From positions 620,001-684,000 of the forward strand of contig BCHU01000014.1 of assembly GCA_001599715.1 (NCBI GenBank): DNA of 64,000 bases, given 5' to 3'. How positions within the stretch are numbered: the first letter of the stretch is position 1; every line of letters begins with the position of its first letter. The DNA comes from Phaeotremella fagi. Taxonomy: Eukaryota > Basidiomycota > Tremellomycetes > Tremellales > Phaeotremellaceae. Shown in pieces: positions 911 to 20,200 of the stretch. Position numbers and translations under genes: made by a program. Under the pieces are notes generated by a model. It worked only from the letters and a program-made list of their open reading frames with translations, did no database searches and was not told where the DNA came from.

Positions 911-1171
911 ATGAAATTCATCGCTTTGATCACTTCACTCGCTGTCGCTTTTATGGTCGTCGCTTCACCCGTCGCTGAAGCTGAAGCTAATGCTAGTCCT
1001 GATGGAGCTGAAGCAGCTTCATTCGGAGGATTCGGTGGAGGTGGTGAGTGCTTTCGTTCATCTTATACCCTACTTTCTCAATCGACATATGTTTTCATGA
1101 TTCCTTTGACATGGGTTCTTATCTTAACTTCTCACTGATTCTTGTTGATATTAGGTGCCGGTGCTTACTGA
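911..1171 (+). CDS. Qsp1-like secreted peptide precursor, 49 aa (copy 1)
   Basis: A tiny spliced gene: exon 1 is 911-1043, the intron 1044-1154 (GTGAGT...TTAG, phase 1 inside a Gly codon), and exon 2 1155-1171. The 49-aa product has an N-terminal signal peptide (MKF, then a hydrophobic core, then ASP/VAEA), a short Ala/Glu-rich pro-region with Asn and Asp, and a C-terminal segment SFGGFGGGGAGAY. Known for the family: Cryptococcus Qsp1 is a short secreted precursor yielding an 11-residue Gly/Ala/Pro-rich peptide with Asn-Phe-Gly near its start and a terminal Trp. The resemblance in size, signal peptide and aromatic-ended Gly/Ala tail is seen; quorum-sensing function is inferred. A paralogue lies at 12134 and an OPT transporter follows at 2949. 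Read without the intron, the frame runs on to 1138, but the tail then loses all resemblance to the paralogue. It could instead be an unrelated small secreted protein. Confidence 0.7.
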
Positions 1172-1213
1172 TTTCTCAGAAGTGTTTGGTCCACTATGAG
1201 ATGAGGTTTTCGG

Positions 1214-1276
1214 GTGAGTCTTGATTGCGTATTTACTACCTCTGTGAGAGTTTTGTAGCTGATAATTGATTCTTAG
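1214..1276 (+). other. Predicted 3' UTR intron of peptide gene copy 1
   Basis: GTGAGT at 1214 and GCTGAT...TTCTTAG ending at 1276 define a 63-nt intron that begins 42 nt after the stop codon. The second peptide gene has an equivalent intron 41 nt after its stop. This is predicted from splice consensus alone. Confidence 0.55.
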
Positions 1277-2948
1277 ATTCATGTAACTCATTCGATTGAT
1301 TCGGATGTATTTTTGACATCCTTTACTACGATCCTTTCTTTCACAGTCTCGTTTCTCATCGTTATTCGTCATCATGACTCAAGATCTATCAATTCAAACG
1401 GTTGACTGATCATCCAACTCACTAGAATAGCACGATTCGTGCCACATCCATTTGAATTTACCTGCGCCATTCATTCAGTTGACCTTTACAGCAACCTTAG
1501 CCATAGATTTGGGAAGACCCAGAACGATCGATTAAAGGTTATGAAACATAACCCAATTCACGAGCCATGTAATTGAACTTTCCAGCCATTTGAAGTCAAC
1601 GTTGATCTCTCATCGGATGAGATGTTGGACCAAAACAAACCACAAACAAATGGTGGCTGGACAAAATAAGGGATAAACCAAAGTGCCTTTTCGTGTTTTT
1701 TAATTGCTGATTACGGCAAATGTTCGTCACCAAGTCGATCAATCAAGGTTTTCCTTTTAAACTTGCTCAGATGTCAAGGTTGAAAGATGTCTTAAACTTT
1801 GTTTTTTCGTTTGTGGAGTGGGTTAGTTGCTATGTTCAGTTTAACTTGATTGACGCTGCTTGTGAGATAAGATGTTTGGTAGTCAGTTGTCCTTTGTGCT
1901 TATTCGCGTCTTCGGTGGCAGATATGATATAGACGATTTTCCTCAGTACATCTCACCTGTTGAGGTTAATTACTCGGAACAAATTTGTTGATATAAGCAG
2001 ATCAGTCGAATGTAAGCCGCCTTAGTTTGAACGACGCCATGGAGACCGTTTGAGCCTTGGCGTAAGTTACTTGTGAAGTACGAAGAAGATGAGATCTAGA
2101 GATTGGATGGATGTTGGGTCCAAAATTGCCAAATCCAAAATTATCAAGTTGGATCTCTCACGTAAGAAAGAGTTGACAAGACTTGTTTCAGTGAAGACTA
2201 GAGTAACTTTGTTTATCTTTAACTAGAGTAGGTAAGTAACTTGACTGGTCATCATCTTCTACTTTAAGGAAACGATGGGACGATGAAGGGACGAGATATG
2301 AACGGAGAAACAAGCAAGTTAATTCAAGAATCGAACTGATGAGATAAGTCGAAACTAGGAAAGGAAATGAAGACTGTGAGAGATTACAGGAGGAAACGAG
2401 AAAAGGAAGATATGTAATTTTGTGATTCAGGGACCAAGTGAGGTGAGAGTGAGGAAAGAGAGTGCCTTGCCTGTCTCTCCCTTTGCTCTCCTACGTTGTT
2501 AATTAGGTGGTACAGAGATAGAGAAATACATACATACTTCTACACCTCTTTCACTACCTTACTTACCTTATAACTTGCCCATTACTCAATCAACACAACA
2601 ACAACACAACACATCTCTCAACAAACTCAACACAACACAACAACTTTCATCAACTCATATCCACATTTCAACTCTTTCTTTCTCATTATCACCACATTTT
2701 CAATCTCAAAACTCAACCCCCCCTCTTACGACTTCTTCAATTCAATAAAGTTTTAATATACAGTACATTAATATCTTGAAGAATTCATTTCTCATCACTT
2801 ACCCGTTCACAGCTTATCGACAATATCAGAGAAACCGTTGGCAACAGTGACTTTCACCTTACGCGCTCTCATAAAATAGTCGACAACTTCACTTCACTCC
2901 AACTCATCTATCACTCTTATCTCTGAATCGATACAATCTCTACCTACA
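1277..2948. other. Intergenic region: peptide-gene 3' end and OPT promoter/leader
   Basis: No gene is supported. A 70-codon frame at 1720-1932 has no recognisable product. From about 2450 the sequence becomes a CT-rich promoter. From 2580 to 2660 it is a leader rich in CAACA/ACACA units, continuing as a long CT/CA-rich untranslated leader up to the OPT start at 2949. Confidence 0.55.
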
Positions 2949-5900
2949 ATGTCCTCGGACATCCCACCACCCTCGACAGCGGGTTCCGAACAAAGTCAAG
3001 CCAGACCAACAACTTCATCCTCCAGACCTCGAACACGTTCAAAACGTCCAAGAACAGTTAGACCAGATACGACAGCTTCAGCCATTGGTGAATTACCTGA
3101 TCAAACGTTTTTCCCCGAAGGCGATGAGTTTTCAGAAGAAGGAGAATTCTCTGAAGAGGAGGAAGAAGAGGAAGGTGTTTTCGCGTTCAGGAGACCTATA
3201 ACTGCTGCTGTACCCGGTGGAGGACTTACTTCAGGTGATGAAAGTTTCGGTACGAATGGAAGACCAGATACTGGAACAAGTTACGGATTACCAACTACCG
3301 CTGGTACTCATCACACTGGATTACGATCAGTTCCTGAATCAGTCGCGACGACTGGTAACATTGATGCTGGTGGTCATTTACCTGAACTACATTATAACGT
3401 TCAAAATCCACCTATCTTCAGCGGAAGACATAATTTAAACAACAGCGCTTTTGCATTTTCAATTAATTCCGGATCTAGAACTAAAACCGCCGAATCAAAT
3501 GATACGTTTGGTAACAGTAACAGTAACGATTCACGTCCTCCTTCAAATGGTCAATCTCTCATGGCAAGAATCGCAAGAAGACGTTTGGACACTGGTCAAA
3601 CTGATATGACTGGAACCACTGATTTCAGTGGAACTACACATTTATCCAGTGAATATCCAAGAACTTCTTACGATTCAAGTAGAGATACCATGGATGGTGA
3701 ATCCTTTGGAGGTGATCTAGGTGAAGCCAGACCCAAAGCTAGACGTGTTCGTTCTTCAGCCCCCTTGATCCCAAGTACCGCTGGTGGAATGTCAAGTGAT
3801 TTCGGTACTGAATCACGAAGAGGTCAAAGTCGAGGTAGTTATGGTATGACCGAGTTGACCGGTGATATGACTGTTCCTGATGGGAAAACCACCTGGGGTG
3901 ATGGTTTGGGAGGTATGATGAAGAAGGAAGGTAGTGAAATGGGCGACGCTAGTCAAGCTGGTTTCGATGTTGATATGCTAGAAGAGGATAGTCCTTATCC
4001 TGAAGTTAGAGCTTCAGTTTCAAACATTGACGATCCAGAAATGCCTGGTACGTTTTATTCGTTTTTTGGTGCGTGTAATAGTTACTGATCCCTTATCAAG
4101 CTCTCACCATTCGATCTTGGGTTCTTGGAATGTTTTTGAGTATCGTCATCAGTGCTGTGAACACTTTCTTCCATTTCAGAAATCCAGCACCAACTCTTAC
4201 CCCTTATTTGGTCATGTAAGTTTTCTGTAGACAGAGTTTTCTTTTGTGCAAATACTAACAGATTCAAGGGTTATCGCTTATCCACTTGGTAAAACTCTCG
4301 CCTGGGTGATGCCTATACGAACATGGACTGTCCCACGTTTCCTGGGTGGTTGGTCTTTCAGTTTCAATCCTGGTCCCTTCAACATTAAAGAACACGCTTT
4401 GATCGTTATCATGTCCAACGTGTCCATCAGTACTGCATACGGTCTGTACGCCACGGTAACCAGTGAGATTTACTACAATCATAACTTGGGTGTAGGGTAA
4501 GTGAAACAGCTGTACCAGATGTGATATATTCTGCTTACGCTACTTTAGATTCGGTATTCTCTTCATTTTGACTTCTCAATGTCTCGGTCTCTCGTTTGCG
4601 GGGATTGCTCGTCGTTTCGTCGTTTGGCCAGCTTCAATGACTTGGCCAAGTGTTTTAGTCGTCGCTACGACCCTCAACACCTTCCATGCCGAAGAAGACA
4701 CTGGAGGTCGTTCAATGACGAGATATAAATTCTTTGGAATCGCTTCAGCTGCTTCCTTTGCTTGGTATTTCCTTCCAGGTAAGTCAAGTCTTCTAGATCG
4801 TCGTCGACTGTGACTGATTAAAATTTGTGTAGGTTTCCTTTTCAAAGCTCTCTCCTACTTCTCATGGGTGTGTTGGATCGCTCCACGTAATAACGTCGTC
4901 AATCAACTCTTTGGTATTTCGACTGGACTCGGGATGGGTATTTTGACCTTTGATTGGGCTCAGATATCTTGGATCGGTTCTCCTTTGACTACACCTTGGT
5001 GGGCTGAAGTCAATATTGGTTTGGGATTCGTCCTTTTCTATTGGATTCTATGTCCAATCATCTATTACACCAATGTAAGTCGTTCTTCCTCATTAGATGC
5101 AATTGGATGATTAAGCTCATTCTTGTTCTATAGGTTTGGCAAACAGCATACTTCCCTATCTCAGTTATTCAACCAGGTGATCGATTTGGTGGTGTTTATG
5201 AGATTTCATATATCATCACTCCCGAGAATACACTCAACACTACTGCTTATGCGGAATACTCCCCTGTTTACATCTCAGCTTCCTTCAGCGTGACATACAT
5301 GTTATCTTTCGCTTTGACAACTGGTTTACTCGTTCATACCGGTCTTCACCATGGTCCCAGAATCTACAGAGCTATCAGAAACATCAGAACTGAAGCTGAC
5401 GACATTCATCTTAAACTCATGAAATCTTACAAAGAAGTCGCTGAATGGTAAGTTGTCTTTCTTGATCGACCGTGTCGAATGACGACGACTGACCTCTGAT
5501 TTCTTAGGTGGTTCTTGATCGTTTTCGTTGTCTCTTTCGCTTTGAGTATCGCTGCTATCGAAATTGCAAAAACCGCTTTACCAGTTTGGGGATTATTCGT
5601 TTCATTATTGATTTCTTTCGTTTACGTCGTCCCTTCGTCTTTCATCTTCGGTATGACAGGTATCGAACCTGCTTTCAATCTTATCTCTGAACTTATTCCT
5701 GGTTATCTGTTCGCTGGTCAAGCACTTCCAGGCATGGTAGGTTTTGGTTTATTTCTTTGTCTTTTGTTTAGTGGGGCTGATGAATGGGTATTTTAGTTGT
5801 TCAAAGTTTACGCTGTTCAATGTCTTTATCAAGCCATGAATTTCATTCAGGATATGAAACTTGGTCATTACATGAAGGTTCCTCCTAGATCGACTTTCAT

Positions 5901-6819
5901 TGGTATGTTGTATCTCCTTCTTCACTGTAATGTCTGTCATCTGATCATCACCTTGTGTAGCTCAATTATCAGCTTGTTTCGTATCTTGTTTCGTGCAAGT
6001 CGGAGTGAAAGAACTTCTATTCCACATTGTTCCAGATATCTGTTCAAGTGATCAAGCTCAATCGTTGACCTGCGCAACGACTGAGACTTTCGCTGTATCA
6101 TCCGTCATTTGGTATGTCCCCTTTTCCCAAAATTTGATGGAGTTCCCACTAAAACTATCATAGGGGTCTCGTTGGACCAGGCAGATTATTCAGTAAAGGC
6201 GGATTGTACAATCCACAACTGTACGCTCTTCTCGCTGGTGCCCTTTTACCAATTCCACTATGGCTTTGGGTCAGGAAATACCCTCGATCAATTTTCCGAA
6301 ACGTCAACATCCCAGTCGTATTGAACAGTGGTCTCTACATCCCTCCTGCGACCGGTTTCAATTATTCCAGTTGGTTGGTCGTTGGTTTCATCTTCCAATT
6401 CTTCCTCAGACGTAGATTCTTCGCTTGGTGGTCAAAGGTATGGAGTTATTCTTTTGCTGTGTCGTTCCTGATTTACTGACGATGGGTTTTTTTAGTACAA
6501 TTATATTCTTAGTGCTGCACTCAGTGTTGGAACTTTGTTCTGCGGAATCTTCATCTTCTTGGTTCTTCTTTTACCTGGAGCATCAGTGAATTGGTGGGGT
6601 AATTCAGTCTATATTAAGAGTAGGTCATTCATTCTTAGGGCGTTAAAGGTTGAAGTGGGACACGATACTGATATTCGTTTCTTTTTGTAGCTGCAGATTG
6701 GCAAGGTGTCGCCGCTTACTTGACAGCACCTGACGAAGGCTTCGGTCCAACTACTTGTAAGTGAAAGCAACCATTCGTGAGGGAAATGGTAGCTAACCTG
6801 ATGTACAGGGAAAGTATAA
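2949..6819 (+). CDS. OPT-family oligopeptide transporter
   Basis: An integral membrane proton-coupled oligopeptide transporter with about 14 exons. The N-terminal ~360 residues form a long hydrophilic cytosolic extension rich in Ser/Thr/Gly, with an acidic Glu run near residues 57-76. The intron after DDPEMP joins ALTIRSWVLGMF, after which come the membrane segments. The OPT signature NPGPFNIKEH is at about 4366-4395. Later family blocks include FGISTGLGMG, GVYEISYIITPE, FIFGMTGIEPAFN and GGLYNPQLYALLAGALLPIPLW. The last intron (GTAAGT...ACAG) gives a short ...GPTTWKV ending at 6819. Substrates are small peptides or metal-peptide complexes. In Cryptococcus neoformans an OPT protein (Opt1) imports the secreted peptide Qsp1, which makes the neighbouring peptide precursor noteworthy. 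Family assignment is secure; substrate is inferred. Splice sites were assigned by eye. Confidence 0.93.
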
Positions 6820-7266: not shown

Positions 7267-10246
7267 ATGATGCTAGATAGAACGAAATCCAGAGATGGGA
7301 AATCCCATAGTCGATCACAATCACTTGGCGCAGGTTTGGGTAGCGTCCCAATGAGTCCTGGGGGTAGTAAGAATGCTTCACCTGTTATGGGTGCAGAGAA
7401 TGAATGGGCTGATATACAGGCCAGGTACGTTCACGTTTTCTTTATCTCTTTGAGAGCTGAGGTAGCTGATTGACTTTAGAACTTTTTGTAAATGGTATGT
7501 ATCTATTTGTTCTGTTTACTATAACGATTAACTTTTACAGGCTTAACACTAAACTCGAAAGTCATGATCTGGAACCTATGACTTCATTGGTTAGAGATTT
7601 CTCTGATGGTGTTAAACTCATTCAGGTATTTTTCGGTCTCTCTATATACATCTGTTGTTGAAACTGACTGTACAATTTAGCTATTGGTAAATTCATCTCA
7701 CTAATACTATTAATACCAGTCTGAGTTGAACTGATCGAATTGGTTTCAGGAAATCATGTCTGAATCCAGTTTAGGTCGATATAATAAGAAACCTGTTATG
7801 AGGGTACAAAAAGCTGAAGTAGGTTATTGTTTATTGTTATTGATAGTTGAAGAATAGATTGCTGATCATCTCTCTCTCTTTAGAACGCTTCGAAAGCTCT
7901 TCAATTTATTAGAGATAGGGGAGTCAAATTGACTAATATCGGTGGGTTCTATCTTCAGCTATTTCTTGAACCTCGAGTTAATGTCCTTTAGGTCCTGAGG
8001 ACATCGTTGATGGGAATTTGAAATTGATTTTAGGAATGGTGAGGGTTTTGTTTTGACTTTCTTTTTGTATCGACTGACGTCTTTTAGATCTGGACTCTGA
8101 TTCTGAGATTCACTATCGCTGGAATCACGTATGTCAAATCTTCTTCAGTTGTCTATTCACAGAATTGATATTCAATTTCAAAATAGCGAAGAAGGTCTGT
8201 CAGCTCGAGACGGTTTATTACTATGGTGTCAACGTAAAACTGTCACTTACGCACCTTTGGTCAACGTCGTCAATTTCAAACAAAGTTTTTCAGATGGTTT
8301 AGCATTGTAAGGAATCAACTTAATTCGTGTAGCTGACAAATAGATGTGCTCTCATTCACCATCATCGACCTGAGTTACTTGATTTCTATAAACTCGATCC
8401 TAACGATAAAAGAGGAAATACAGAATTAGCTTTTAAGGTTGCTGAACAGGCGTTAGGAATTCCTGTGAGTGTTATTTTTCTATTTTGAAGGGGTTGAATT
8501 GATCGGTATTTATTTAGCGATTGTTGGAAGTGTCTGATTTGTGTGATGTTGAAGTACCAGATGAGAGGTCGGTGATGACTTATGTCGCTGAGTTTTTCCA
8601 TAAATTCTCTTCTGAGGGTAGGTCTGTAATACGCACGTAAACTGACGACCTCAGATAAAGCCGAAACGGTAGTCAGAAGGGTTGAGAAATTCGCAGAACT
8701 CATGCGAAGTATCTGGTAAGTGTCACAACCGAAATATTACTGATACCCAGGACCAACAAAAACGATTTCGAACGTCGAATGGAGATTCTCATCGATTCTT
8801 TGAAGACAACTCAGAAAACATGGTTGGATAGTCCAAGTCCTGGCTCTTATCACGAGGCAATAACAGGTTTAGCTCAGTTTGCGGATTACAAGAAAACGAG
8901 TAAACGAGGTTGGGTGAAGGAGCGTCAGGAATTGGCTGCTTTGTATAGTAACATCCAAACGAAGTTGAGGACGTATAGTCTTAGATCTTGGGAACCTCGT
9001 GAAGGGTTACGATTGAATGTGGGTTTCTGAATCTGGCTTCTCTCTAACGCCTGTACAGGATCTCGAACGAACTTGGCAAGAATTTTTGGTTTCTGAAGGA
9101 GTCAGGAGCAGGACCATCAATGCTCAAATCAGAGAGTGAGTGGTAGGTTATCGAGCATTGCTGATTTCTAGAATCAAAGAATCTCTACGAAAAGCGTTTG
9201 CTCAAGTCGCTCTCGATTTCATGTCACGTCTGCAGAAAATCGAACAGGCTATTGGAGCTCTCAAGGGTTCTCTTCCAGTACGTATATCATTCTGATTGAA
9301 TTAATGCGATAGGATCAAAAGCAAACTTTGTTGAAACTATCGGGCGAAATTCCTCAACTCCAACATTATTTGAAGATGGAGGGTTACGCGGCTAATCAAA
9401 GTTGTTTGGAGGCTAAAGTTGAGGAGAATGATTATACTGTTTTGACGGTTGATGATTTGGAGTGGGAGCTTGAATTGGTTGAGGCTGGTCTAAGGAAGAA
9501 GGTTGCTTTCATTGATAATCAGGTAAGTGTTGGCGATGAGACATTGAGTCGGATACTGATAGGGTGCTATTTAGATGGTTTCGGCTAATCATAACAATAT
9601 TACTCCTGCGAAATTGGAGGAGTTTGAGGGTACTTTTAAACATTTCGATAAAGATGATACAAATGTAGGTCTTATTAATGAGAAGAACTGATCGATGACA
9701 GACATTGAATGTTTACGAAATGCATTCAGCTTTGGCGAGTTTGGGGATCGTTTATGCGGTTCGTGGATTTTCGTTATTTGTTGGTGAAGTTTAGCTTACG
9801 ATAGAGCAGGATGAAGAGATTGAAGCTATCTATGTTGCTTTGGAGAGAGACTTTGGATCTGTCAATTACGAAGCTTGGTTGGCTTTATTGGTGGGTGAAC
9901 CTGAATGTGTTCAATCTAACCAGTGATGTAGGTCGACATCACCCGAGACGACTCTTCATCTCCAGAACAGGTTCGCGAAGCTTTCCGAGGTATGGCTGAT
10001 GACAAGGTAGGTGACGTCGATTTGGACTTTACTGATTCATAGCCCTACGTGACCGAACTGGACTTCAAACATGCCAGTCTACCTCCGGAGACGATTCGAT
10101 TCTTCAAAGAGGTCATGCCCATGGTTCAGCCAGCTCAGACCGACGGGTTGAATGACGGTCCGGGATACGATTGTGAGTCCCATTTTGAACTTACTTCTAA
10201 CCGTTCAGATCATGGCTTTTTGGAAACGGCGTTCTCGAGAGGATAA
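7267..10246 (+). CDS. ain1: Alpha-actinin (actin cross-linking protein)
   Basis: Cytoplasmic F-actin cross-linker of the contractile ring and cortical actin, equivalent to fission yeast Ain1. About 18 short exons. A Ser/Gly-rich N-terminus is followed by two calponin-homology domains forming the actin-binding domain: CH1 from WADIQARTFCKWLNTKL to [14 protein letters not shown], and CH2 from [14 protein letters not shown] to [11 protein letters not shown] helical spectrin-type rod of about two repeats follows (about 8660-9590), then a C-terminal EF-hand pair. The first EF loop, DKDDTNTLNVYE, keeps acidic positions 1, 3 and 12. The second is degenerate and probably binds no calcium. The rod is shorter than the four-repeat animal form, as usual in fungi. 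The ATG at 7267 is used; the next codon is also Met. Seen: both CH domains and the EF region. Splice sites were judged by consensus. Confidence 0.92.
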
Positions 10247-11822
10247 GGTTTTTTTTTCTTTTCACCGCAGTTAACGGGATTCCAAGAGTGGTTATAAAAA
10301 GAAATAACGAAATAGATATTCCAATTTGTATTTGATACCTAGCATACTGTATGATGATAGATGTAACTTGTGTTTACCAATTTCTGGTATCAATTTCCTA
10401 ATGCGTCCGTTTTGATCAAGAGGCGATGTGATAATATGACGTAGAGCTATACCGAGCAACGAGATTTGGCGCAGTTACATAGGCGTAGGCGCAGTTACCA
10501 GTAACGAGAAGAGTTGAAACAAACAAATCCCATTTGACCGTTGGAGCGGGAATTTGTTTTTCGAATGGGAACATCTCGTCCGATCGGAAGTAAGCTGGGT
10601 AAAGAAGAAAATTCGATGGAAGGTTCGAAGAAGGGAAGGAGCAAGGAAAGAAGTAAAAATAACTACAGAAACTACGGTACACGTAGTCTCAGAAGTGATC
10701 GCCCGAAAGTGTTTCTCAGTGCTTAGAACATTTCACCGGGTAAAATAGAAGACGATCAAAGTGTCACCCCTCGGGTTCCAATGGCGTCAGAAAATGATGT
10801 GCCAACTTTAGTAAGATCTTCAGCCCAGATCAAGCCCACGATCGATTCTTGATCTTATGGTTTTGACTTCAAAGTTGGTTGGGTAAAATAACCCTAAATT
10901 ATAGTTCACGCTAAGAAGCTCTGGACATGAATGGAAGCGTTGGGGTCATGCTGCTGCACAAGTTACAACCCAGACCCACCTGGCCAATGGTTACAAGTAT
11001 TATTGGTGCCACCTAGCCACTTTATCTTTCTGTGATCAGTGCCTGAAAGAAATCAGCCACGGGTTAGGCACCATTTTGCTGTGTTGTTTGATTTTGATTT
11101 GTTGAGGTTTATTTCCTTTTAAGGTAATTCATCCCACAGTGTCTGAGATATTCACCCGACGGGTTCTCTTCTCGCGCCTACTTGACCTTCTGGAATCCAC
11201 CTCTCTAATTGTTCCGAGTCACTTTATAGGTTATTTTTAATGCACAACGTCAGACTTAATGGTTGGTGGGGAGGTTGGAAATCAATCCTTCTGATAGATT
11301 CATAGATTCTCTATGGATGTTGGTCTTCATGGTGTTGATATGAGCGTCACGACGTAATCAGTGGCAGGAGCTTAAACGTGCGATCAGTTAATATTATTCC
11401 ACAGTCAAGCTTCTGCTTCATATGATCGGTCAAGTTCCAATTTACGCTCCACAAAAATATAAAAATCGCGCGTTCAAGCCACGAAAACACATAAAGCCCG
11501 ATGGGAAGCACTGAGAGATTTTGATTCTCTGTGAAAAAATAAATGACACGTTGGGCTGCGGTGCATGTGCTGTGATTTTATTTTATGAGGCAGGAACACC
11601 GACACGGTAACCTAACTGGGTTTAACTCAAGGTTAGAGAGTTGAGTTTTTATGACCTGGAATAGAATGATGAGCACAAGGTTCACGATAGGTATTTTTCC
11701 TGTGGATGATATACCCGGCTCAGGGGAATTCGAGAGGAAGAAATCTAGACGGGGCAAGTCGGGATGCCGAGTCTTCACCAGAATCTCCTGGGATGGATAC
11801 AGGAGAACCTCTTGACGCACAT

Positions 11823-12133: not shown

Positions 12134-12339
12134 ATGCAATTCGCCGCTGTCTTCACTGCTCTCATCGCCGCTACCGTCGCCGTCGCTGCTCCTCTCACCA
12201 AGACTGCTGCTACCGCCGCTGCCTCATCTTCAGGTGCTGCTGGTGCCGGTTTCGGTGAGTCTTTTCGTTACTACTTGACAACCATTCCTTGTACTGACAT
12301 GTTCTCTCTTTAGGTGGTGGTGCTCCAGGTGCTTGGTAA
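12134..12339 (+). CDS. Qsp1-like secreted peptide precursor, 48 aa (copy 2)
   Basis: Exon 1 is 12134-12254, the intron 12255-12313 (GTGAGT...TTTAG, phase 1 in a Gly codon), and exon 2 12314-12339. The product is 48 aa: a signal peptide (MQFAAVFTAL, then an Ala/Val core ending AVAAP), a Thr/Ala/Ser pro-region, and the C-terminal tail GAGFGGGAPGAW. The tail shares with Cryptococcus Qsp1 the Phe-Gly start, the Gly-Ala-Pro-Gly core and the terminal Trp; this copy is closer to Qsp1 than copy 1. The intron sits at the same place and phase as in copy 1 (911-1171), so the two are paralogues. Secretion followed by proteolytic release of a C-terminal peptide of about 10-12 residues is inferred. It could alternatively be a small cell-wall or effector peptide. 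Confidence 0.72.
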
Positions 12340-12445: not shown

Positions 12446-13700
12446 TCTCATACTTTCTCACTTTCCAATCGACGACCCTTGTTATCTTTCTTTACGAACC
12501 CCGTTATGGAGACCATTTAAAAACCTTTTAATCGGACGTTTAAATCAACCACCTTTTCATCCATCTTCCTATAAAAACCACTTTATCTACGCCGACCCTC
12601 ATCCTCCCATCTCCTCATCCTATTTTTTTTTGGGATGGTGTAAGGGGGATAGGTCAACGCAGGTCGTGGCGTATATATATGACTTCTCTCTGGCTTTTTA
12701 CGATTATGCATTTTGCCTTTTTAATTCTTTAGATACTTTTTTGTCATGCACTTCTTTGTTTTCGTCACGATTACAGAGATCACTTCGGTTGTGAGATGAT
12801 AAATCATATCGTCATGACTACCGTTGTCATTTCACAGTTGATATCTAAGAATAACCTTGGTTTCGACGTCACTTCGTTACCTTCGCAGTAAGCAGAATTG
12901 CCCCCGGACCAACGACAGGAGATAGTTAAGGATATGTCGACTTATCGTAAGTGGATAAAAAAGCTTACGACACCCAATGTTCAAAATTGGTTAGTCTATT
13001 TTCACATATGGTAACTGGTAACTCGTTACTTAAGGGCTTCCGATCACAGGATGAGGTAAAGGTAGGTTTTCGGTACATTCAGTTCAAAGACAATTTATAA
13101 CATTAACGTTGTTCGGAAATACAACTGGTATTTGTATCTTGAGATTATGTATGTTAAGGACGAAATTAATTATTGCGACAGAGCTTTGAGATTGTTTCAA
13201 TTCATTCATAAATTAATTAAATGAGTTGTTGAGGGTTATTAGGGCTTGAGAAAATTGGATTTAGTCCTTGATACTGAGGCAACGTTTGTTGTTTCTTGTC
13301 ATGCTTCGTAATTGTGCTTGTAGTCTCTCAAGACCATGGCCAAGTCAGAGCCAAGATGATCGAAGACGTTGGATATGTACATGCTATACTGAACTGTCTT
13401 CTGATATTACACTTATTTGACGTTATGAACCTAGATTAGTGTGCCCTACACGACTGTTTCTGCGCAGCTTCATCCATTTTTTGTTCTCCATCTACATAGT
13501 TAGAGCGGGAACGTATCTAGATATGGTGTTCATGCATAGGGCATGCATGAATCTTGTACGCTGGAGACAAGATAGCGAGAGCTTAATTATCACTGAGCAC
13601 AAGTCACGTGATCGTCCAGAAAAAGTTGAAATATTCGATCTGTCAATTCAGCTTTCGAATGCTGAGATTCATTTAGCTAATCATCAAAATTCAGAGCGAG
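12446..13700. other. Gene-poor region upstream of CTU2
   Basis: It holds the 3' end of the peptide transcript (C/T-rich to about 12800), then AT-rich sequence with no supported gene. A 153-codon plus-strand frame at 12333-12794 is rejected because it reads through the 3' UTR and its intron. A CACGTG site lies near the right end. Confidence 0.5.
13614..13621. promoter_or_regulatory. TCACGTGA E-box upstream of CTU2
   Basis: A perfect palindromic TCACGTGA about 80 bp before the CTU2 ATG. In fungi CACGTG is bound by Cbf1-type bHLH factors. Binding is inferred from the motif only. Confidence 0.4.
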
Positions 13701-15470
13701 ATGTCTTGTCCAGTACCCAACGATCAAATAGAATCCAACGATAAAGACAAGGATGAAGGTGCAGAACTCATGCCTCGTAAGTCTGGTCGCAAAAACACTC
13801 ATCCAATGCTGATCAATCTCCTCCAAAGGTCGAAAGAAAATAACCGACAAAACGACATGTCAACGATGTAAAAAATCCAAAAGTCTCTACGTAATGAGAT
13901 CAATAACCTACTGCGCCCCCTGTTTCCAACATACAACCTACATCCGATTCGTCCGTCAACTCAATCCACCCCTCCTCCCAGAATCAACCAAAATCAACAT
14001 GAAAACCTCAAGTTTAACCGTCCTCCGTCCACCGAAACTGGATACTCAAGTTCTGATAGGTGTCAGTGGTGGAGCTGGTAGTTTAGCCATGTTGGATTTT
14101 TTGGTTAGTAGGAATTACGTTGGGAAGGGAGATGGAAGGGTTTATGATCGGACTAAAGGTGAACGGGAGATTGTTTGGGATAAGGGGACGGTGGTTTATG
14201 TTGAGTTTTGTGGGGTTGTGGGAGGGTCTTTTGATAGGTCTGAAGAGATGAGACGGGTTGCTGAGGAGAGGTGTTTGGGGTTTGTTGGGTTACGAGCGGA
14301 GGACGTTTTTGATGAGACGTTGGTTGAGAGGTTGACCGGTGTTAAGGGGGTTGAGAGTGGACTTCTTTCGACTAATTTCTTGCAGAGGGGTGAGTTTATT
14401 TGTTTCATCAGAAATGATATATTAAACTCAATTCAAATAGATTTCCCTTTCATCGACACATCCTCATCCTCATCGTCCACTTCAACTTCTCTCGAAAAAC
14501 TTCAACCACTACTTTCATCAATCCCACCTTCCTCAAGACCTGCACTCCTCTCCAACATCCTCTCAGCATTATTGAACCTAACAGCCCAAGCTCTTCCAAA
14601 TATCTCACATCTTCTACTCGGTGAAACGGCAACCAGACAAGCTCAAAGGGTAATAGCTGGATCAGCTTCAGGTAGAGGTTGGCAATTACCACTTGAGTTA
14701 GCTAGTTCGATCGTCCTACCTCCTTCATCAATATTACCTTCTACAGATGGACGTCAAGTGATTCAAATGAAACCGATGAAAGATATTACCGTTAAGGAAG
14801 CGGCGTTTTTATGCAGATTAAGTGGTCTCGATACTATGAATTCGAGACGGTGGGATCAGGTTGGATCAGGGAACAAGAATAAAGGTGCAGTCTCTAGTGT
14901 GGAAGTCGCTACTGAGCGTGAGTCGTGGTTTTCTTGGGTATGAGGGTTGAAACTGATCGATATAATCTAGAATTTATTGCTGCTTTAAGCGTCACTCACC
15001 CTGCTACCGTTTCAACGATCACTAGGACAGGCGATAAACTCGTCTTCCCAGGTGAAGATACCGAAACCCTTTGTCCAGTTTGTGAAATGTAAGTCCATGT
15101 TCGCAATCAAAATATCGGAATCTAATGAAGCTACCGCAACAGGCCAATAGATCCTACAGCCTTAGAATGGAAAGCCCGAAGCGCCTTGAACAAAATACCT
15201 GAAAAGGGAGAATCGGATGTAATCGTTGAATCTACGAATGTGGACGATCATTCGCTATATCCACTTCTATGTTATTCATGTCAAACGACTTTCACACCGA
15301 CCGTTATACCACGGGACAACGAGTTGGTGGAGAAGAGTTCAACTTTGTTGCCTCTCTGGATATCTCAGAGAGTTCATCAACGTCAACAGAGGGATGTTGG
15401 GAGGGAAGAGATGAGATCGGAGATTGAGGAGTTTATTATTGCTGATGAGGAGGGTGAGACTGGTTTGTAG
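13701..15470 (+). CDS. CTU2: Cytoplasmic tRNA 2-thiolation protein 2 (NCS2/CTU2)
   Basis: Subunit of the cytosolic CTU1-CTU2 complex that makes the 2-thio group of the wobble uridine (mcm5s2U34) in tRNAs for Lys, Glu and Gln, using sulfur relayed by URM1. Exon 1 (13701-13776) encodes an acidic leader. Exon 2 starts RRKKITDKTTC and carries the N-terminal zinc site CxxC...CxxC (TCQRCKKS and YCAPCF). A degenerate PP-loop follows (LIGVSGGAGSLAMLDFL), where CTU2 lacks the full nucleotide-binding motif of its partner. The C-terminal part has two further CxxC pairs (LCPVCEM and LCYSCQ). Introns lie after NFLQR, after EVATE and after VCEM. Length and motif order fit the fungal family. The start at 13701 gives the longest product with a clean exon-1 donor. 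Confidence 0.88.
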
Positions 15471-15832
15471 CTTTGAGTGGGTTCGTGTATCTTAGTTGTA
15501 TTTATACGATTTCTGCTATTCTACATCTTCCGAATGTCGGAGGTGCCACTACTGTATGACTGATGAAATAGTAAACGACAAACGATCAATCCTGGAGCTT
15601 TATTATCTTTTGAGTCATTTATAGTTGTGTGTGAGTTGGTGATTCTTCATCTTGCAACATTGAGATTGAGATTCAAAGACTTGGGAGTGTCATTAACGCG
15701 TTCAATATAATACTAGTCTTATGGTGATAGCACCCGGTTATAAGTCGAGCCGACCACACATTCACCATCTTCAATCCACACTTCCTACCTCTTCCACGAC
15801 TCCAAATAACAAAAAAAACAATCCATCCAACA
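15471..15832. other. Intergenic region between CTU2 and the isomerase gene
   Basis: 3' end of CTU2, then a short promoter with a C/A-rich leader (about 15750-15832). No gene seen. Confidence 0.5.
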
Positions 15833-16890
15833 ATGTCACCCTACACCCTCCTAACTCTAACCAAACCACACAAAACAGTCTGGCAAATCTCACTAAACTC
15901 CCCACCAGATAACAGAATAACCACTGATCTCCTACAAGAACTTTCCTCAGCTTTAGATCAAGTTGAGAAAGAATGGAGAGAATCGGGTGGTGCTTTATCA
16001 CCTCTACCTGATAAACGGGGTGAGAACAAAGGAGCGGGAGCGCTGGTTTTGAGTAGTAGCTGTCAGAGATTTTTTAGTAATGGATTGGATTATGAGAAGA
16101 GTTTGAAGGTTGAGAGGTTTTTTGAGAGTAGGTTTTTAAAATGTTTTGGGATTTGGGTTCGGGAGTGATACAGATTGACTCTTTTTTGGTAGATCATTTC
16201 GACCCTGTTTTGTATAGACTACTTACTTTCCCTTTGATCACTATTGCTGCTGTTAACGGTCATGGTACGTTTCTTTTTCTTCGTATGACTCTAGATCGTC
16301 TTAACACTGATGTTGGGTAGCTTTCGCCGGTGGGATGATGTTGGCTTTGGCTTGTGATCATAGATTCATGACTTCAGGCAAAGGGTTGATGTGTATGAAC
16401 GAGGTAAGTTGAGTCAATAAGTTCAGTCTATATCTCACTGATAATGCTTGACAGATTACATTCGCATCTCCCCTCCCAAACTCTTTCCCAGCTCTTCTCT
16501 CCATCCGATTCCCAAACCCAAAGGATATCAGAGATACACTATTAGCTAAAAGATGGACACAGAAGGAATTGCTAGAACGCGGTTTATTGGATGAAATCGT
16601 GGATGACGGGGATGGAAAGAATGATATCCTTTTACGGAAGGCTATCGAATTTGGAATTAAGGAAGGGGTCAAGATTGGACCTGGAAGTTGGGGGAGCATC
16701 AAGGTTCGTTTGCAGATTTTTTTGGCTCCTTGGATGCAGGGCTGGAGCGGGAACTGATACGATGAGTTAGGATGGATTGTTTCATTCTGTTCAAGACGCT
16801 TCTCGATCTTTGAGACCGGTGGTTTTCCCTCACCAGGAAGCTAAGATGTTTTGGCAAAGGGTTGGGGTAAAGGATAAAGCCAAGTTGTAA
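15833..16890 (+). CDS. Peroxisomal enoyl-CoA hydratase/isomerase family protein
   Basis: Crotonase-fold protein, most like the delta3,delta2-enoyl-CoA isomerases that shift double bonds during beta-oxidation of unsaturated fatty acids. Five exons. The N-terminal strand block WQISLNSPPDNRITTDLL is followed by SSSCQRFFSNGLDYE. The oxyanion-hole segment is VNGHAFAGGMMLALACDHR, and the NEITFASPLP block carries the Glu at the position used as catalytic acid/base in isomerases of this type. The protein ends ...KDKAKL. The terminal Ala-Lys-Leu is a peroxisomal targeting signal type 1, so a peroxisomal site is inferred. It could instead be a hydratase. The single conserved Glu, rather than two, favours an isomerase. 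Confidence 0.82.
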
Positions 16891-17209
16891 ACAAATTGGG
16901 GGAGGGTTCAACCTTTTGGTTCGTTTATGAAGTCTTTGCGGCTCTGAATTTGTGGAATATATATTGTATCTGTGATATGTATGTGTATGTAGGCAGTCTG
17001 TCATGTACCATTCTATTCCATGCTGTCTTCAATTCTCTTCTTCTAAGGTGACTAATTACGAGAGCGGGCCTACGTCATGATTTGGGTGAAACTGACTAAC
17101 TGACGCTGTGAATGTGGTTGTGATTGGACGTTTATCTTTAAACAGCATCTACTATTTACTATCTTATAACTATAGTTAGTATTCAGTATCCAGTATACAC
17201 CACACCACC
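16891..17209. other. Intergenic region before the PX-domain gene
   Basis: 3' UTR of the isomerase gene, then a short promoter with an ACTATAACTATAG stretch (about 17155-17175) before the ATG at 17210. No gene. Confidence 0.5.
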
Positions 17210-20200
17210 ATGGCAGATAACAACACAGGGAACCTCCCTTATCAACCAAGAAAACCAAGGTCATCAAAACCTGATAGACCTTTACCACCACCTCCTCCAA
17301 AAACTTCTATCAACGATAATGACGACAACGACGAAGAGGTATTAACAACCAATGATTTCGAACAAGCTCAATCATTAACTTCACCTCCATCTCCACCACC
17401 ACAAGTTCCAGTTAAAGATCTACCACCTCGTCAATCATCTATCAACGCTAGACCTAGACCACCCGTTCCAAAGACCAAATCATCCAGTTCATCAAATGCA
17501 ACAGTTCAATCTCCAGTTGGTTCGGGTGCCCAAACTTCAGCAGCTTATTTACATCCTTATCATTCAACTTATCCAGTTAACGATACTTCACAACCACCAA
17601 CTACACTTACACCGTTACGTGCACATTATCTGAAGAAAACTTTGGTGAATCTACAACTCGGTCATGAACTTAATTTGATAACTGATCCAGTACTTGGTGC
17701 CAACGCTTTGGGCTTACTTGGTGATCCATTCGTTATACCCGAAAGTGCCAGGCAGGATGCTATCAACAGAATATCTCAGGCTGATGGTACCAATACATCC
17801 GTTTCAACGAATACTAGAGGTCCAATAGGTGATCTACCATTCATCAGATTCATGTTCCATCAATTCTTGTTACCATTCCCATTCCTCGCTGCAGCACCAC
17901 CAACATTCTGGTCACACAAAGTTCAACCTTTCCTAAGTAGCTTCCTAGCTACCACAGGGGTTTCACAACATTCAACGAATCTTTCCAAAGCTGATCAAGC
18001 GGTTGCTGATAGTTTATTAACGAAAGAGGAGTTGAAGGAGGCTAACGATAGGAGGAAATTATGGGTCAAAATCGAAAAACATTTATCGTTGATGTTTGGA
18101 GTTGGTATTAAAGTTGTAGGGGGTGAAGAGGTTGTTAGGATTGGTCAGGCTGAATTGAGGAGATTGGAGGCTATTCAGGAAGAACGACGGAAGAAATGGC
18201 AATTGACTAGAGGGGATCGCGAGAATGGGATTTCGTTCGATGTTAATGTCGTCGGTGTACGTTTGGTCGTTGAGAAGGGAAGAGTCAGGAATAGGAGTCA
18301 CGAGGTGGGTGGTTTGGTGCATTATAAGTATTCGAGCTGATTCCGTGTTAGGAATTCTTGATTCGCACCAGAAGGACTGGTGTGCAAGACGTGTTCGTTT
18401 CGAGAAGATATGGAGATTTTAAAAGATTAGCTGATGAGGTAAGTTTTGGGTCGAGATTATATCACTTTTTGGCACTGATCACCAATCTGCGTTCTCAGCT
18501 ACGACTCGCTTTCCCAGATTACCCCCTTCCAGCACCTCCACCAAAAGACAAATCTACGACAACAGCTCCACCGGTTGCAGCTTCATATGGTTACAGTGCC
18601 TACAACCCTTTACGTGTGATTTATGGTAACGGACCTGCTACCCCAACTTCCAATCCAGGTACACCAACTTCAGCAACGTCGACCAATTCCATGGAAAATC
18701 AAGAATCAGCTCCACTATCAAGAGAAAGAAATCGTCTGACTCTCAGGGCATATCTTTTAACAATCCTAAATCTCCCTTACGTCCTCGACTCACCGATCTT
18801 ACGTTCATTCTTATTATCAGCACCTACAACCTTAACACCACCTGAAGCTCTTGATACTCAGAGAAGACTTGAGGCTGATGCAGTACGGGAAGAAGGTAGA
18901 CGTCGATTCCGAGAGGAAGCTGAAAGAAGAGTCGAAGCTTTACGTGAAGGTTTGGCTCAATTCAAGGGCGACGTTCTAAACAAGAACGGAGGTTTGAAAG
19001 GGGTATTCGAAGTTGTCAGAAGAGTTGAAAAGGTCGAGGATTTACCTAAAGCCGAAGCTAGTGTTTTGGAATGGGGAAGAATATCGTATGTCATCTAGCG
19101 ATTGATTCTCGTGCAATGAAACTGATATGATGGATTTCAGATTGGCAGCTACTATTTTCCAAATTTTTGTGGCTTCAGATACAGCTTCTGAAACTTTACA
19201 GAATTTAAAGAGATTACATGGTCTTATGCCTTATTTCGTCTTGAAGGGTATTTTGAAAATCTCAAATCCAATGGCTATGATTAGAGGTGAGTCAGTGAGC
19301 TTTGGACCAAAGGACAACAGTTGATGAATTCTAGGTGTATTGGATCTCTTCCTTGCTAGACCATTTGGAGGTCAGAGTTTGATTCAGAGGTCAGTTTCAG
19401 AGCACTCTAAGGGGGACGAAGCTGACTATCATCTTAGAATGTTTTCTCAGAGTTTAACCGAAGACGTCAGATTGATCTCTGAAGACATCGAAAACGTTAA
19501 AGAAAAAGTTGACGATCCGGTTCTTTGTCAAAAAGTTGAAGCGTATGCCAACGCCCCTTATGAAATCCAAGAGATTTATCGTAGAGATGCTCGTAAGTAA
19601 TCCATTCCTCAGAGAGAAGTCGCGCTGATAGCTTGACGTTACAGTTACAGAAGGACTTGATCTCCTGGTAGTGATTTTACGATCACCCGAAATGCCGTCC
19701 CTCTCACGACCACAATTCCAACGAGTTTTCCGAGCTTCGAGAGCGTACAAAGAATATAAAACATTCCAAGCTGATTTGGAAGATTCAGATGATGATATGG
19801 GACCTGATAATGATGACGCATGGTTATTCGAGGATTTGAATATCTTGATGAAACTTTTAACGAGGAAGAAGGAGAAGGAAGCGCTTTTAGCTTTGATCTT
19901 TGAGGTTAGTGCAGAAGTTTTTTCGAAGGATTTGAGAGACTTTCGACTGACGTTTTGATTTAGGGTGTAACGGCTGAATTGTTGAAAGATATTATCACTA
20001 TTTTCTATACTCCACTAGCACAGGTTTACAAGGCTGCTAGTATTGCGGATTCATTGGGTGATTTGCAGAACTTCTTGAATGACATGATCAGAACTGTTGA
20101 ACAGGTCGAGGAATGTGAGTGAAACTTCTGAGACTCGTAATTCAATCTGACATCTTGTATAGTGGCACAGGAAGACCCTCAAAGGACCGTACAAACATTT

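Follow-up and report, generated by a model that had tools for sequence, protein, structure and literature searches.

A probable counterpart of the Cryptococcus QSP1-OPT1 locus with three candidate peptide-precursor genes around one OPT transporter gene

Results

Genes at the locus

In this work we have analysed a stretch of 64,000 nucleotides (nt) of fungal DNA, C14:620001-684000, which we call the window and which belongs to an assembly of 22.6 Mb in 24 contigs. Near its start a small gene for a predicted secreted peptide precursor, here named B, stands before a gene of the OPT family of oligopeptide transporters, and two similar small genes, A and C, lie on either side of this pair. All genes described here are gene models built from the sequence. 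On the plus strand the order is A, 1,032 nt, B, 1,777 nt, OPT, 5,314 nt with a calponin-homology (CH) domain gene inside, and C. The features are the following, with C14 marking contig positions and all other numbers counting from the start of the window; the scan rules are given below.

C14:619675-619878, plus strand: precursor gene A, reading MNPITIF...GFGQSGPGAY; found by the relaxed scan rule; ends 122 nt before the window start
911-1043, plus strand: precursor gene B, exon 1; signal-like start, acidic/Ala pro-part and beginning of the Gly-rich tail; from the reading frame and a GTGAGT donor
1044-1154, plus strand: gene B, phase-1 intron, GTGAGT...TTAG
1155-1171, plus strand: precursor gene B, exon 2; final residues ...AGAY and stop; from splice and translation
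2949-6819, plus strand: OPT oligopeptide transporter, Opt1 orthologue; 13 exons, 1062 amino acids (aa); from gene model, alignment and tree
12134-12254, plus strand: precursor gene C, exon 1; signal-like start and Ala-rich pro-part; found by the relaxed scan rule
12255-12313, plus strand: gene C, phase-1 intron, GTGAGT...TTTAG
12314-12339, plus strand: precursor gene C, exon 2; tail end ...GGAPGAW and stop; from splice and translation

An earlier note on this DNA had described a spliced 49-aa precursor with a Gly/Ala tail and a terminal aromatic residue, about 1.8 kb before an OPT gene on the same strand, and both statements were borne out. The model that joins 911-1043 to 1155-1171 gives a product of 49 aa with a hydrophobic start, then an acidic/Ala stretch, then ASFGGFGGGGAGAY and the stop, so that the Gly/Ala tail ends GAGAY; from this stop to the OPT start codon we measured 1,777 nt, both genes being on the plus strand. 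A match of B to the Pfam family DIM (E 0.23, 12.2 bits against a cut-off of 20.8) was rejected as chance similarity of a signal peptide. Directly after gene A, a tandem array of the 7-mer CCAAACT spans window position 1 (about C14:619924-620013).

The transporter

The OPT gene model is interrupted by 12 introns, each 52-71 nt long, and reads through without an internal stop or frameshift; PF03169 matches are spread across its locus. A search with residues 380-1000 returned 590 proteins, the best 120 of which were headed by Cryptococcus, Kwoniella and other Tremellomycetes. Only one sequence among these 120 was labelled C. neoformans (P0004), and it is 65% identical to the window OPT over residues 380-1000. 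Mutations of CNAG_03013 (OPT1) are known at P358, M484 and W932, according to PMC8092252; since P0004 carries P, M and W at positions 358, 484 and 932, we take it to be Opt1 (CNAG_03013). The long N-terminal extension of the window OPT aligns with the proteins of C. neoformans, C. depauperatus and Kwoniella botswanensis. When P0004 was compared with the genome studied here, its segments were 45-79% identical to the window locus, as against 30-46% for other OPT genes, although the lowest single E-value belonged to another OPT, on C6, which has one long exon and 37% identity. A family search found at least five other OPT loci, of which C4 holds two and C6 three. Whether this transporter is the true orthologue of Opt1 had been left to be checked by the earlier note, and the 65% identity, the N-terminal extension, the best identity within its own genome and the tree all speak for it. 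The window OPT is thus the orthologue of C. neoformans Opt1.

The tree comprised 27 OPT proteins (the window OPT and 26 picked from the best 120 of 590) and was computed for this one gene under LG+G4. It draws the window OPT outside Cryptococcus and Kwoniella, beside Cryptotrichosporon, Vanrija and Cutaneotrichosporon (support 93/89, branch not starred); the highest identity of the window OPT is 68%, to Tremellales sp. Uapishka_1. Grouping the window OPT with the 13 Cryptococcus and Kwoniella sequences was rejected by the approximately unbiased (AU) test (p 0.0096), and grouping it with Cryptococcus alone gave p 0.003. The value for Kwoniella alone, p 0.0004, is weakened because the tree draws this genus in more than one clade, and the 13 sequences form one side of a low-support branch (53/75). 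All these groups were named after the tree had been seen. As a single gene under LG+G4 gives only a tentative placement, we tentatively regard the species as lying outside the sampled Cryptococcus and Kwoniella.

The precursor family

Small genes of this kind were sought by a scan with two rules fixed beforehand, both requiring an ATG, at most one intron and 28-90 aa. The relaxed rule called for a hydrophobic start, at least six G/A in the last 15 residues and an aromatic residue in the last three; the strict rule called for more G/A, an aromatic last residue and a K or R near the start. The 84 kb made up of the window and 20 kb upstream yielded three matches, B by the strict rule and A and C by the relaxed one. 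In 100 kb round the five other OPT loci there was one relaxed match, unlike A-C (89 aa, ending CFE), and the relaxed rule found nothing in a further 90.2 kb. Of these, 20 kb come from C14 flank and 70.2 kb from other places; the 70.2 kb comprise 40 kb of arbitrary stretches and 30.2 kb in ten loci, and as these ten were chosen by a DNA pattern, the sample is not random. Altogether the scan covered 274.2 kb of the 22.6 Mb genome, and the occurrence of such small genes beside the OPT gene exceeds chance.

A, B and C encode 48-49 aa with a hydrophobic N-terminus (Kyte-Doolittle window) and a Gly-rich tail ending in GA-Y/W, the whole product of C reading MQFAAVF...GFGGGAPGAW; they are predicted to be secreted short pro-peptides. 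Each gene has a single phase-1 intron with a GTGAGT donor, 5 to 8 residues from the C-terminal end, and 13 of the first 15 bases of the B and C introns are identical. TATA-like boxes stand 98 nt (A), 151 nt (B, TATAAAA) and 126 nt (C) upstream of the start codons. In global alignments compared with shuffles made within three segments, the real score was equalled in none of 5000 shuffles for B-C, in 1 of 5000 for A-C and in 37 of 5000 for A-B, and a search of the whole genome with C found B as its sole other match (E 0.018). It is likely that A, B and C are paralogues within one locus. What is new here is A and C, two further precursors flanking the B-OPT pair.

Linkage shared with Cryptococcus neoformans

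We compared the neighbourhood with that of C. neoformans only, through published papers. CNAG_03012, which is Qsp1 (PMC6687208), and CNAG_03013 flank one intergenic region on Chr3 (PMC2848560, PMC8187385), and a single inversion affects both (PMC3618354). In the shown part of Table 2 of PMC6115741, CNAG_03012 is called a "quorum sensing-like molecule" and heads the cellular transcripts with high expression. Opt1 residue numbers increase with the Chr3 coordinate, as follows from the mutations in PMC8092252; this direction, together with the CNAG numbering, would place QSP1 5' of OPT1, as B is placed here. The earlier note had asked for synteny in related genomes; in C. neoformans the precursor-OPT pair matches the neighbours CNAG_03012-CNAG_03013 (QSP1-OPT1), and the linkage of the two genes appears to be old.

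A further gene may belong to this block.

C14:610517-609724, minus strand: dolichyldiphosphatase-like PAP2 gene, single-copy; PAP2 50.1 bits, cut-off 27.2; two-exon model

It lies about 10 kb from B and contains GMPSSHSQ, which we take to be a dolichyldiphosphatase motif, and we read the gene as that enzyme; its first exon has no match in NCBIfam or PDB. In C. neoformans, CNAG_03014 is a dolichyldiphosphatase (PMC9765290).

Comparison with the Qsp1 peptide

The Qsp1 peptide is NFGAPGGAYPW (PMC5959062, PMC5959073), and the tails of A-C have in common with it the FG, the Gly/Ala/Pro content and the GA-aromatic. Several observations weigh against kinship with Qsp1. The tails of A-C do not have its terminal PW, and among 5000 letter shuffles the score of the real tail against the 11 residues of Qsp1 was reached 301 times for A, 146 times for B and 797 times for C. 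The similarity of the tails to Qsp1 does not exceed what their composition gives. A and C passed the relaxed rule only; whole-genome searches with A and with B each matched the query alone; and a protein-database search with B gave four candidates, none at E <= 10. A profile of the Qsp1 peptide (padded with X, with the published inactive analogue) likewise gave no database entry that was of comparable length and had three words in common with it, and as this search found nothing for Qsp1 itself, the missing match for B says little about homology. Finally, the dolichyldiphosphatase-like gene is on the precursor side of OPT, whereas the CNAG numbers suggest the far side; the block would then have been rearranged, yet not dispersed.

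When DNA coding for FGAPGGA was sought as a pattern across the genome, at most two mismatches being allowed, there were 35 matches against 16 for the reversed control; nine of the 35 were translated unspliced, and no small secreted precursor was seen in these. What speaks for a kinship of A-C to Qsp1 is their place and their plan.

Other parts of the signalling system

The pro-peptide of the fungal quorum signal Qsp1, once secreted, is cut extracellularly by Pqp1; Opt1 is required for the effect of Qsp1, which is then exerted inside the cell (PMC7537855). Pqp1 is CNAG_00150 (PMC6687208), which has been assigned to the pyrolisin subfamily of subtilases (PMC5371821). In the genome studied here S8 subtilases were found at three loci: a PA-domain enzyme on C2, a Kex2-type enzyme with a P-domain on C5, and on C10 an enzyme that carries an I9 pro-domain. 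The PA-domain enzyme, at C2:576451-577638, is the candidate counterpart of Pqp1. There are two WOPR (Gti1/Pac2, PF09729) loci, C18:58130-58799 and C6:1059027-1059495, and one of them may be the counterpart of Liv3, a factor downstream of Qsp1.

Neighbouring genes

The CH-domain gene between OPT and C (7267-10250, same strand) scored 25.2 bits from one exon, slightly below the cut-off of 26, and is presumably alpha-actinin or fimbrin-like. Downstream of C follows a multi-exon gene at 13700-15470, which we take by eye to resemble the tRNA-thiolation factor Ncs2/CTU2; two of its open reading frames (ORFs) had no Pfam match. Beyond it lie an enoyl-CoA hydratase-like ORF (15731-16890; 22.8 bits, cut-off 27) and an ORF with a PX-associated (PXB) domain (17180-18340; 90.2 bits, cut-off 27). 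On the other side, between the dolichyldiphosphatase-like gene and A, a multi-exon gene on the minus strand (C14:614343-617179; L011:4343-7179) has by eye the look of a fungal transcription factor, and two fragments of it had no Pfam match.

Discussion

The gene models, the likeness of A, B and C to one another, the orthology of the transporter and the neighbourhood in common with C. neoformans are what can be read from the DNA itself. Taken together, we think it probable that this locus is the counterpart of the Cryptococcus QSP1-OPT1 locus, with three peptide paralogues whose products would be imported by the Opt1 orthologue as a density signal. The reading of the earlier note is supported at the level of the locus and the transporter, and is extended to a family of three peptide genes. 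The expression, secretion, cleavage, import and signalling of the A-C peptides we infer. According to our model, the three paralogous genes would give short secreted precursors, from which, once the signal peptide has been taken off, a Pqp1-like subtilase of the cell wall, and not Kex2, would release a C-terminal peptide of about ten residues, roughly FGxx(G/A)(P/A)GA(Y/W). These tail peptides would then be imported by the Opt1 orthologue, whose gene lies between theirs, and inside the cell they might act as a density signal on a WOPR/zinc-finger transcription network.

Kex2-processed peptides and lipopeptide mating pheromones are also made from small secreted precursors, and both readings were tried and rejected. 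None of the translations of A, B and C contains a dibasic pair (KR/RR) and they have no internal repeats; the absence of a dibasic site fits a protease other than Kex2. They end in GAY or GAW, with no CAAX box and no cysteine.

Could just one of the three genes, probably B, be the true Qsp1 orthologue, with the other two having diverged to a different role, for example as antagonists? B is directly 5' of OPT, as appears to be the case for CNAG_03012, B and C are nearest to each other, and A is weaker in OPT-like codon use (0.60, compared with 0.80 for B and 0.73 for C). However, all three genes have an intact frame, a hydrophobic start, an intron and a GA-aromatic end, and we consider such a division of roles somewhat unlikely; as regards B alone, it is compatible with our explanation. 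It may also be that the transporter is Opt1 while A-C form a local family of their own, unrelated and coding for secreted glycine-rich peptides with a cell-wall, antimicrobial or other function; descent or chance would have made them its neighbours, and it would not carry their products. Secreted peptides rich in Gly/Ala are frequent among fungi, and the likeness of the tails to Qsp1 within the limits of composition and the lack of a protein-database relative of B would both agree with this. Against it, both kinds of gene are also adjacent in C. neoformans, and in the DNA scanned the family occurs only round this OPT and not near the five others, so that we regard an unrelated family as unlikely. 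That the small ORFs are chance readings and not genes is highly improbable: they are very short and seen by spliced reading only, but there are three copies with a common plan, intron phase and donor, with TATA-like boxes and, in B and C, a codon use resembling that of the OPT gene, their alignments go beyond shuffles, and the control scans were nearly empty.

A locus with three peptide genes, as we prefer to read it, is like the Qsp1-Pqp1-Opt1 system (CNAG_03012, CNAG_00150, CNAG_03013) in that a short precursor of secreted type adjoins the orthologous OPT, in the Gly/Ala/Pro tails with FG and GA-aromatic, and in the presence of a PA-domain subtilase, two WOPR genes and a nearby dolichyldiphosphatase-like gene. 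It differs in having three similar precursors, where the papers cited here speak of one, in tails that end GAY/GAW in place of PW and resemble Qsp1 without significance, in its rearranged neighbourhood, and in a species that the one-gene transporter tree puts outside the sampled Cryptococcus and Kwoniella. An analogy of the Qsp1 system to bacterial peptide quorum sensing with import by oligopeptide permeases has been drawn (PMC7537855). Export, maturation outside the cell, re-import and intracellular action are alike in the two, whereas the protein families are different. OPT is not an ABC permease.

According to PMC9790007, which cites Homer 2016 for the distribution, key components of the Qsp1 system occur within Cryptococcaceae; the paper also suggests a recent origin. 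In the open-licence literature we found neither Qsp1-type precursors described outside Cryptococcaceae nor a multi-copy cluster. To our knowledge, clusters of signal and importer genes are common in bacteria and rarely described in fungi. Our data suggest that the signal and importer genes remained neighbours through evolution. Perhaps, although we put this at slightly less than an even chance, one Opt1 orthologue outside Cryptococcus and Kwoniella serves several diverged, self-made peptide signals encoded around it, the importer staying constant while the peptides multiply and change. If our reading is true, a linked precursor-importer locus with three peptide genes outside the sampled Cryptococcus and Kwoniella would point to an earlier origin of the system and would suggest that signal and importer stay together as a gene cluster, and the tails of A, B and C would offer a natural peptide series for finding the residues that Opt1 reads.

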